IMG/VR virus record: IMGVR_UViG_3300025099_000170
Location: 1-21,343 of that record
DNA from: a virus
DNA: 21,343 nucleotides
Direction: 5' to 3' (one strand)
Program-made: the position numbers and the translations under genes
The notes under the pieces: model-generated
Database searches by the model: none
What the model saw: only the letters and a program-made list of their open reading frames with translations
What the model was told of the DNA's origin: nothing
Shown here: positions 5,107 to 7,759 of the stretch, one piece after another
Position numbering within the stretch: position 1 is the first letter of the stretch
Layout: every line of letters begins with the position of its first letter

Positions 5107-5393
5107 CACTCTTTCCCTGTTGACATTTCTCCGCCCAAACTAGCGTAACCTATTTTGTCTACCCAAGAGTCTTCATGGTCTATAGTTTCAACTAATCTAC
5201 ACGTCTTTGTCCAGTCCATCATCAACGCAATATGCCCTGGTGTCAAATGACCATGCGTTTTTATGGCTCCATCAACGATAACATTCCAACCAATTGCTAT
5301 GCGCTCATGGTTAATTTTTGCATCACCGTACACCTCAGCTCGATCACCATTAACCAATTCTTTTGCTGAATCAATTAAATCATTTCTCTCCAT
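5106..5393 (-). CDS. DUF6378-like phage protein
   Basis: This 95-aa protein matches the pattern of DUF6378, a small all-helical family found widely in phages, often near nucleotide or replication genes. It shows GDRAEVYGD (16-24), NHERIAIGW (28-36), IALMMDWTKTCRL (55-67) and DSWVDKIGYASL (75-86). The conserved acidic and His residues resemble MazG/dUTPase-like helical folds, but the biochemical role is not known to me. The start is ATG at 5391-5393 with GGGAG 7 nt upstream. A TTG two codons earlier would be only 1 nt from that site. It overlaps the helicase 3' end by 14 nt and is joined to the next gene by TGATG. Confidence 0.8.
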   Translation of the reverse strand: MERNDLIDSAKELVNGDRAEVYGDAKINHERIAIGWNVIVDGAIKTHGHLTPGHIALMMDWTKTCRLVETIDHEDSWVDKIGYASLGGEMSTGKE

Positions 5394-7053
5394 TACCAAT
5401 CTCCCTCACCATTTTATCAATATCATTTTTGTTCCAAAGATAGCTTAACCAACAAGCCGCTTTGTATTTGTCCCAAGAAAAATCCATTGGGCTAACAGTG
5501 ACACCATTTGACTTTAAATGTTGCACTTGCAAAGCAGACGGAGTTTGTGAAAGCCATCTTTTTGTTTTGTTAGCTGCACTACTATCTTCAATCTCTCGAA
5601 GAAAATCATCTGCTGCAGAAGTTGCTTGCACACGAGCGCCAATAGAAACAGCCCTTAATTTACCATGTTTAGATTTAACAATAGCTATAGAAGTATCATC
5701 TATCGTAGCAACTAAACCAAATCCTTGAAATCCTGTAGCCATCATACAAGATCCATTGCCAAAAATATCTAACCATCTGAACGGAGATAATTGCATTAAA
5801 TCGTATTCTGTTAATGAGAAGTCTGATAGTTCTGACTTTGCAACGCCCTCAAAACCATGACCACAATTAGGACATACTCTTGAGTTAGCTGGAATGATGA
5901 AATCACACTCTGGGCATTGTTTCTCAATTCCCATTCCTTCAACGTTCTCTGGAGCGCCGTCTAGGTTTACGTTCTCATCTAAAGCACCATGCGTTAAGAT
6001 ACTGGTGCCAAAATCTAAAACAATGCAATCTTTCTTAATTAATCCCGGATATATCTCTGGGTCAATGATACGCAATCCACGCCCAATCATCTGAACCATT
6101 GTAGATTTGTATGAGCATGGCCTAGTGAGAACAATGCACGAAACAGGTGGAGCGTCAAAACCTTCAGTTAAAACAGCTACGTTTATTACAACCTGGACAT
6201 TACCAAACTCTAAACTCTGCAAAATATCTGCACGTTCATCAGAAGGCGTTTCTCCAGTTACGATTTCTGCATTAATATCATTTGCAACAAACTCATCAAG
6301 CAAAGCATTTGCGTGGCGAATAGTAGAGCAAAACACAACGGTTTTTCTATCTGAAGCCTTCTCTAACCACTCTTTGACCACACGCTCATTAATGATTGTA
6401 CGGTTCATAATTGCTTCAACTTGCTCCATATCAAAATCGTTAGCAAGCTTTCGAACTTCTCCCAATTCGCTCTGCACACCAACGTCAATAACGTAGGCAG
6501 TAGGTTTTACTAAAAAGCCCTCACGAATTAATGTAGTTAATTCAATCTGATGTGAGCAGTTGTTAAAGACACTCTTTAACCCTTTTCTATCTCCACGATT
6601 AGGAGTGGCTGTAAATCCTACGATTTCAGCGTTGTCATTGTCTTCTCGAATTGCATCAATAATCTTTTGATATGTCGGAGCGGCAGCATGGTGACTTTCG
6701 TCTACAACAACCATATCAAACTTAGGTCTATTGCGTAAGTTTGCATCCCTGGACATTGTTTGAACCATAGAGAAAACAGCTTCTCCATCCCAATGTTTCA
6801 TTGAGCCGTTCACAACGCTAGTCGTAATGTAGGGATTTACTTTATTAAACTTAACGCTGTTTTGTTCAACCAGTTCATCTCTATGTTGAAGAACTAAAAC
6901 ACGTTTTCCTTTTTTATGTCTCTTGCCAATTAAGGCAGACATCATGATAGTCTTTCCAGCCCCTGTAGGAGCAACAACAATTGTGTTGTTATGTTTATCG
7001 AGGGCTGTAGACGCATCTGACACAGCGACCTCTTGATAGGGTCTTAATAACAT
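5380..7053 (-). CDS. DEAD/DEAH-box SF2 helicase with C-terminal zinc ribbon
   Basis: This 557-aa superfamily 2 helicase has the motifs in order: RPYQ (4-7, Q-motif-like), Walker A APTGAGKT (28-35), motif Ia LQHRDEL (55-61), DESHH (118-122), FTATP (147-151), TVVFCST (238-244) and VQMIGRGLR (320-328). After the helicase core a zinc ribbon with two CxxC pairs (C380, C383, C394, C397) precedes about 150 residues without a recognised fold. This layout resembles phage and restriction-like UvrB/SSL2-type helicases, expected to unwind or remodel DNA during replication or recombination. The ATG at 7051-7053 has AAGGAA about 6 nt upstream. A structured 93-nt gap precedes the gene and may control it. 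The 3' end overlaps the DUF6378 gene by 14 nt. Confidence 0.92.
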   Translation of the reverse strand: MLLRPYQEVAVSDASTALDKHNNTIVVAPTGAGKTIMMSALIGKRHKKGKRVLVLQHRDELVEQNSVKFNKVNPYITTSVVNGSMKHWDGEAVFSMVQTMSRDANLRNRPKFDMVVVDESHHAAAPTYQKIIDAIREDNDNAEIVGFTATPNRGDRKGLKSVFNNCSHQIELTTLIREGFLVKPTAYVIDVGVQSELGEVRKLANDFDMEQVEAIMNRTIINERVVKEWLEKASDRKTVVFCSTIRHANALLDEFVANDINAEIVTGETPSDERADILQSLEFGNVQVVINVAVLTEGFDAPPVSCIVLTRPCSYKSTMVQMIGRGLRIIDPEIYPGLIKKDCIVLDFGTSILTHGALDENVNLDGAPENVEGMGIEKQCPECDFIIPANSRVCPNCGHGFEGVAKSELSDFSLTEYDLMQLSPFRWLDIFGNGSCMMATGFQGFGLVATIDDTSIAIVKSKHGKLRAVSIGARVQATSAADDFLREIEDSSAANKTKRWLSQTPSALQVQHLKSNGVTVSPMDFSWDKYKAACWLSYLWNKNDIDKMVREIGNGEK

Positions 7054-7071
7054 TTGATTTCCTTACGCTAC

Positions 7072-7147
7072 TGGAAGTTGGGGGGTTAGCGGCTCACGGC
7101 CCCCCGATCCGTGTTTCTAGCAGACAACCAAGAGTCCTGCCGCTAGA
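7072..7147 (-). promoter_or_regulatory. GC-rich structured RNA leader with predicted pseudoknot, upstream of helicase
   Basis: The gap between the SSB-like stop and the helicase start is visibly more GC-rich than its surroundings. In the minus-strand RNA, TAGCGGC (7139-7145) can pair with GCCGCTA (7087-7093). Inside that stem, CACGG (7109-7113) pairs with CCGTG (7095-7099). The loop of the inner hairpin contains GGGGGG (7100-7105), complementary to CCCCCC (7080-7085) just past the outer stem, a pseudoknot. An alternative hairpin, TCTAGC (7142-7147) with GCTAGA (7116-7121), would break the outer stem. CTTCC (7073-7077) could also mask the helicase AAGGAA. This suggests a regulatory leader, or an operator, or an RNA processing site. 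No T-run follows, so a simple terminator is unlikely. I do not recognise a known riboswitch class. Confidence 0.5.
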
Positions 7148-7759
7148 TTATTTATTTGCCCAACTAGGAATAGGACCACCTGATCCTGGTTGTGCTTGTG
7201 CCTGTGGCTGGTGCGTAGGTTGTTGCACCTGCGGTGAAGCGTAATTACCCGAAGGAATGAACTCTTTTTGGTTTGGTGTCAACGCTACCATGAGCTTGTT
7301 TTGATCATCATAACCATTTGTACCCTTCTTGATACCAACTTTAGCACAGATTTCCATACCAGTCAAAGCGTCCACGCCAGAGATCTGACGACGAGACTGT
7401 GCTTCTGGAGACATATCCGCTGGGTCTAAGTTATTTGCGCTTTCAATAATTGATCGCAAAGTGCGTAAACCAATCTCTTTTGCTAATGGAATACCACTTT
7501 CACCCATCTTGTCACCATCAACAAAAATTCTGTCCCAGAACTTACGACGGTCAAACTGACCACCAATAATTGTAAACTCTAGTTCCATCCATTTTGCAGA
7601 TGAAGTCTGTGATGCTTTAAACCACTGACCATTACCAAACTCTGGGATTGATGTTTCGCCCATCTTTACCAAGATCGTCGCCCTTGCTACTGTGCCAATC
7701 GGAATTAGAGTTCTTTCCATTTGACCTGTTTCTGGCTGTACTTCATTTAAGTTAATCAT
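7148..7759 (-). CDS. Putative phage single-stranded DNA-binding protein (DUF669-like)
   Basis: This 203-aa protein resembles phage SSB-like proteins of the DUF669 kind. A predicted OB-type beta region spans about 18-80 (LIPIGTVARATILV, KWMELEFTIIGGQFDRRKFWDRIFVDG), followed by a helical segment (GIPLAKEIGLRTLRSIIESA, 89-108). A second strand set includes MEICAKVGIKKGTNGYDDQNKLM (135-157, 23 residues with Gly and Asp turns). The last 40 residues are Gln/Pro/Ala-rich and disordered, ending in IPSWANK, like the flexible tails of SSBs, although it lacks their usual acidic tip. It overlaps the Sak4 gene by 8 nt, with GAGGT 8 nt before the ATG at 7757-7759. Its place beside Sak4 supports a recombination/replication role. 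Confidence 0.7.
   Translation of the reverse strand: MINLNEVQPETGQMERTLIPIGTVARATILVKMGETSIPEFGNGQWFKASQTSSAKWMELEFTIIGGQFDRRKFWDRIFVDGDKMGESGIPLAKEIGLRTLRSIIESANNLDPADMSPEAQSRRQISGVDALTGMEICAKVGIKKGTNGYDDQNKLMVALTPNQKEFIPSGNYASPQVQQPTHQPQAQAQPGSGGPIPSWANK

Follow-up and report, generated by a model that had tools for sequence, protein, structure and literature searches.

Genomic context of the intergenic element

The window analysed here is the whole 21,343-nucleotide stretch of IMG/VR virus record IMGVR_UViG_3300025099_000170, whose source phage belongs to a mostly marine group. On its minus strand, a GC-rich gap of 94 nt (positions 7054–7147) separates the stop of a 203-aa gene (7148–7759) from the start of a 557-aa gene (5380–7053), whose Shine-Dalgarno sequence, AAGGA, is located at 7060–7064. 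The downstream gene encodes a superfamily II DNA helicase (Pfam ResIII and Helicase_C; PHROG 16, DNA helicase). The upstream protein has no Pfam family and matches PHROG 2300, which carries no annotation. Its AlphaFold model (pLDDT 83) retrieved the PrgE ssDNA-binding protein as the top Foldseek match (E 8e-5), followed weakly by RPA, supporting its prediction as an OB-fold ssDNA-binding-like protein (hereafter SSB). Nearby genes encode a Sak4-like AAA protein, a Holliday-junction-resolvase-like DUF1064 protein, a Cas4-domain exonuclease and a primase/helicase, and the neighborhood is a phage replication and recombination module. The last residues of the SSB-like proteins in the window (7148–7162) and its relatives form a conserved (V)PSWA motif, which may be a partner-binding tail by analogy with that of bacterial SSB. 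No convincing DNA match to the window was found in the phage collection, where the nearest SSB relatives belong to Wolbachia phage WO and one Megaira phage, at no more than 32% identity.

A conserved double-pseudoknot RNA

The initial annotation had proposed that this gap ahead of the helicase gene holds a structured, likely functional RNA with a G6:C6 pseudoknot, and the pairings it quoted (UAGCGGC:GCCGCUA, CACGG:CCGUG, GGGGGG:CCCCCC and UCUAGC:GCUAGA) are all literally present on the minus strand. The folding free energy of this GC-rich stretch is no better than that of shuffled sequences (z −0.58) and is thus uninformative, so only comparison with relatives could decide whether the structure is real. 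Searching viral contigs for the helicase and the SSB yielded 159 loci, and the same element was seen in their gaps. A covariance model, R1, built from 33 sequences detects the RNA across relatives, and the structured-RNA family is present in more than 100 virus contigs.

The comparison of related phages' gaps, as the initial annotation had proposed, revealed compensatory changes, and the structured RNA with its G6:C6 pseudoknot is conserved. Across 72 distinct aligned sequences and 24 pairs, 93.2% of cells hold standard pairs versus 76.8% after shuffling, both-side changes occur in 19 of the 24 pairs, cells changed on both sides number 239 versus 62 in shuffles, and the covariation score is 0.433 versus 0.150, counts that lean towards helices A, C and D, to which the alignment was fitted. 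Although the model left out the pseudoknot pairs, B is 100% and E 94% paired; a first MAFFT alignment, fitted to no structure, gives the same covariation result. Sliding the partner columns by 1–3 positions abolishes the signal.

The whole conserved RNA covers 7077–7148 on the minus strand (70 positions in models R1 and R2; cmsearch 74 bits, E 1.6e-16, the window being itself a model member). From 5′ to 3′ it consists of the first strand of helix A, a GGC bulge (B), hairpin C, the second strand of A (A′), helix D with helix E starting in its loop, D′, B′, an A-rich stretch and E′. Helix A joins UCUAGC (7142–7147) to GCUAGA (7116–7121), with 98.3% of cells paired, both-side changes in four of five counted pairs, and variants such as CCAAC:GUUGG, GCAAC:GUUGC, GUAGC:GCUAC and GCAAG:CUUGC in relatives. 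The GGC in its bulge (7139–7141) pseudoknots to GCC (7091–7093), which lies within the long D/E pseudoknot loop; all cells of this pairing (100%) are paired, and L405, L412 and L415, of a divergent clade, have GUC:GAC instead. Hairpin C pairs AGGAC (7134–7138, with one bulged G) with GUCU (7122–7125) around loop C, UCUUGGUU (7126–7133), and covaries in relatives, with an imperfect alignment register. Helix D, CACGG (7109–7113) with CCGUG (7095–7099), is 95.5% paired, and every D pair shows both-side changes. Helix E, formed by GGGGGG within the loop of D (7100–7105) and CCCCCC (7080–7085), is 93.8% paired, with both-side changes in all six pairs and variants including GGGUAG:CUACCC, GGGAG:CUCCC and GGGAAG:CUUCCC. 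All main helices therefore covary, both pseudoknots included. D and E form a classical H-type pseudoknot, and B:B′ clamps the A/C hairpin onto its long loop, so that the fold predicted from the alignments is a compact double pseudoknot. Nearly invariant unpaired bases are limited to three adenines (A11, A57 and A87 in the numbering of alignment A3).

The stems of the initial annotation correspond to this fold in part. CACGG:CCGUG and G6:C6 covary, and what had been called the second hairpin, UCUAGC:GCUAGA, is real, being the covariation-supported helix A. The outer stem is conserved only in its GGC:GCC portion; its four outer pairs, UAGC:GCUA, are fully formed in just 12 of the 72 distinct relatives, and the outer stem was rejected as a conserved helix. 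The proposed two-state switch between mutually exclusive hairpins loses its support with it: the clash arises solely through those four pairs, GGC:GCC is compatible with UCUAGC:GCUAGA, and the conflict vanishes in the conserved fold because the four extra pairs are not conserved.

An additional UUCUAG(C) copy of the 5′ strand of A lies 5–15 nt before the ribosome site in L316, L345, L074 and other loci. This third UCUAG copy was considered as an alternative, switch-like partner of A and dropped; it is common in the clade whose helix A carries UCUAG, has no matching copy where A is CCAAC or GCAAC, and is missing in others.

Helices A, B and D contain 15 G-U cells versus 2 A-C cells, which are not independent events. 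Because a G-U pair here would be A-C on the opposite strand, the functional molecule is most likely the minus strand as RNA, an argument to which we give modest weight.

Position relative to genes and distribution

The RNA keeps a fixed relationship to the gene that follows it. In the main group of phages its first nucleotide falls −3 to +16 nt relative to the SSB stop, and the distance from its end to the start codon is 16–29 nt for the helicase and 21–28 nt for other genes. A sequence-pattern scan of the loci yielded 109 matches, 105 of them in this gene context (including L329, whose SSB was identified by eye) and four chance matches lacking the remaining RNA. Every RNA match examined has the same sense as the downstream gene. 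In most cases that gene is the helicase. In some loci, however, the RNA is followed at the same spacing by a PDDEXK endonuclease gene or a small gene that comes before the helicase, which weakens the idea of a strictly helicase-specific element.

A clade found via a more distant SSB (L298 and L405–L416) has SSB and helicase separated by one or more genes. No RNA follows the SSB there; instead it lies about 20 nt before the helicase (R2 E 1e-8 to 2e-10, model R2 having L405, L412 and L415 but not L298 among its sequences), ruling out a strict SSB 3′-UTR element. In L405, the RNA is about 500 nt past the previous gene, yet about 21 nt before the helicase. The SSB–helicase setting described initially thus holds insofar as the RNA usually lies between both genes, but other genes can follow it, and in the L298/L405 clade it is located away from the SSB. 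Because start-codon distance and sense stay constant even where genes intervene, the element is best read as a cis-acting mRNA leader. Comparative sequence data accordingly show three properties of the element, namely its fold, its sense orientation and its fixed distance to the start codon.

The window contains one model match, as does each relative's locus. Sister clades (L418/L433/L440 and L479–L493) retain the helicase, and nearly all of them the SSB, with no detectable RNA, indicating that the RNA is dispensable rather than essential to the system. No RNA match was found in two Manatee Spring phages with the nearest catalogued helicases. Of 395 bacterial genomes in the family of G037, only G037 itself carries the RNA, probably on a phage contig placed in its metagenome bin.

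Proposed regulatory role and alternative explanations

A leader-type role, as suggested in the initial annotation, fits these data best, and we regard it as probable that the RNA is a cis-acting leader of the next gene. The stretch would be transcribed within the replication mRNA and fold into a compact RNA, with hairpin A/C followed by the H-type pseudoknot D/E and the GGC bulge of A clamped onto GCC. It would act in cis on the next cistron, normally the helicase, and the folded form would lower initiation of that gene through pairing of loop C, which resembles an anti-Shine-Dalgarno sequence in most clades, with the ribosome site. Melting or binding of the RNA by anything would then release the site.

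Loop C is variable in relatives (73% pyrimidine, 9% G) and often complementary to the downstream Shine-Dalgarno sequence. The anti-Shine-Dalgarno character of the loops exceeds that of shuffled ones (p 0.001), and the match of a loop C to its own downstream Shine-Dalgarno beats that to swapped partners (p 0.012–0.034 on reduced sets of 28–52, in which shared ancestry is still only partly controlled). Strong cases include UAACUCC:GGAGUUA with seven predicted pairs in L100, ACUCC:GGAGU in L345, ACCUUU:AGAGGU in L043, and L074. The complementarity is absent or weak in L316, L053 and L351 and poor in the window. The CUUCC that had been proposed to mask the helicase ribosome site is not kept, relatives having CUUUC, CUUCU and others, and masking of the helicase start in particular is further opposed by loci with inserted genes, where that start no longer adjoins the RNA. 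From the loop C sequences we infer lowered translation initiation; pairing of loop C with the next gene's Shine-Dalgarno as the mechanism is conceivable but somewhat doubtful, while the broader reading, in which the cis-acting leader reduces initiation at the next gene through occlusion of the ribosome site, stands slightly short of an even chance. Since just three unpaired adenines are near-invariant, a metabolite pocket is less likely than shape recognition or simple occlusion. Speculatively, this RNA class might sense replication state, for example free SSB or helicase, and gate helicase translation via loop C:Shine-Dalgarno pairing.

Rated next after the occluding leader, although rather unlikely, is a protein-bound operator of the T4 gene 32 type, in which the phage SSB (or the helicase) would bind the pseudoknot and spread over a less structured ribosome-site spacer, coupling helicase synthesis to free SSB. 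The upstream neighbor is predicted to be an SSB-like OB-fold protein, the pseudoknot with its 16–29 nt spacer holding the ribosome site resembles the T4 layout (PMC535899), and so few unpaired invariant bases would suit shape recognition. However, it is the helicase or another gene, rather than the SSB's own start, that follows the site, and the RNA does not adjoin the SSB in the L298/L405 clade.

An intercistronic stability or processing element is also improbable, if slightly more so. Here the fold would block exonucleases or mark a processing site, giving the upstream and downstream messages different lifetimes with no action on translation required. The position of the RNA between cistrons, mostly right after the SSB stop whichever gene follows, would agree with this, but its placement in L405, far from the previous gene and close to the helicase, points to a constraint on the start-codon side, and a plain hairpin would suffice to block exonucleases.

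Metabolite pockets usually have more than three near-invariant unpaired bases, and the replication genes around the element name no metabolite. Despite a compact double-pseudoknot fold upstream of a gene, a ligand-binding riboswitch controlling the helicase is therefore very unlikely. Even less probable is an element acting as single-stranded DNA, such as an origin or a primase or helicase loading site. The neighboring genes bind and unwind DNA, and DNA roles have been raised for the STAXI motif (PMC2864571), but the fixed sense orientation and start-codon spacing, together with the excess of G-U over A-C, argue against it. A recoding signal for readthrough or frameshifting of SSB into helicase, suggested by a pseudoknot starting 0–3 nt past the SSB stop in most loci, is refuted by the random stop-to-start phase (26/19/19) and spacing of up to 16 nt, and by L405, where the SSB does not adjoin the RNA.

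Relationship to known RNA elements

The Rfam search proposed in the initial annotation gave no family matching the window: none of the 4227 families of Rfam 15 reached its gathering score with the window or eight relatives, and at E up to 10 the window and two divergent relatives gave nothing or unrelated chance matches below the cut-off. A known ribozyme or riboswitch was accordingly set aside. No description of the RNA was found in the open-access literature. The ssNA-helicase motif, named in the literature as an RNA family, is an Rfam candidate RNA, a nucleic-acid structure near helicase genes; its model, if included in Rfam 15, does not match the window or the two divergent relatives at E up to 10.

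Two described pseudoknots come closest. In the T4 gene 32 operator, an RNA pseudoknot is followed by less structured RNA containing the ribosome site (PMC535899). In the present RNA, too, a pseudoknot precedes a spacer with the ribosome site, ending 16–29 nt before the start codon, and both elements belong to phage replication gene clusters that include an ssDNA-binding protein. However, the T4 operator is about 28 nt long with a single pseudoknot and precedes the SSB gene itself, whereas the present RNA is about 70 nt long with two pseudoknots and follows the SSB stop, before the helicase or another gene. The STAXI motif also lies near ssDNA-binding protein genes, as a pseudoknot repeated two or three times (Weinberg 2010; PMC2864571); unlike these tandem pseudoknots, the present RNA is single-copy and has an extra hairpin and a bulge-loop clamp. 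Because each fails a tested defining feature, neither the T4 operator nor STAXI is identical to it. The RNA combines covarying secondary structure with sense-strand placement at a steady distance before a start codon, the marks of a cis-regulatory leader, and we class it as a new family with its own fold among a known kind, the structured phage mRNA leaders.

This strongly supported structured-RNA family is absent from Rfam and occurs in phages without a close cultured relative in the collection searched, adding to the few cases of RNA control of phage replication genes if the leader reading holds. The RNA is short, single-copy and small enough for a laboratory reporter or structure solution, and the clades with and without it permit a natural comparison of helicase regulation.

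Other features of the loci

In several loci (L114:3703-4119, L126, L037, L046, L222, L282 and L287), a gene for a PDDEXK_14 phage endonuclease separates the RNA from the helicase position, an arrangement beside a replication-gene leader that we liken to the T4 SegG nuclease gene. Contigs with the module were binned with bacterial genomes from metagenomes in the case of L282 (a Rhodobacteraceae bin) and L287 (a Thalassolituus bin), which points weakly to possible hosts. L405 (4440-4950), L413 (4837-5600) and the regions upstream of L433/L440 have a GT-rich noncoding segment of at least about 500 nt that separates small genes from the helicase and contains numerous GGCAGTT-like repeats; it may be a replication origin or a repeat region. 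In L405 (4900-4960), TTGACATATCCGTGTATG...TTATACC immediately precedes the RNA. A related stretch precedes the helicase of L451, where there is no RNA, and contains the inverted repeat GGGTACAAT...ATTGTACCC; the stretch shared by L405 and L451 may be a promoter or hairpin.
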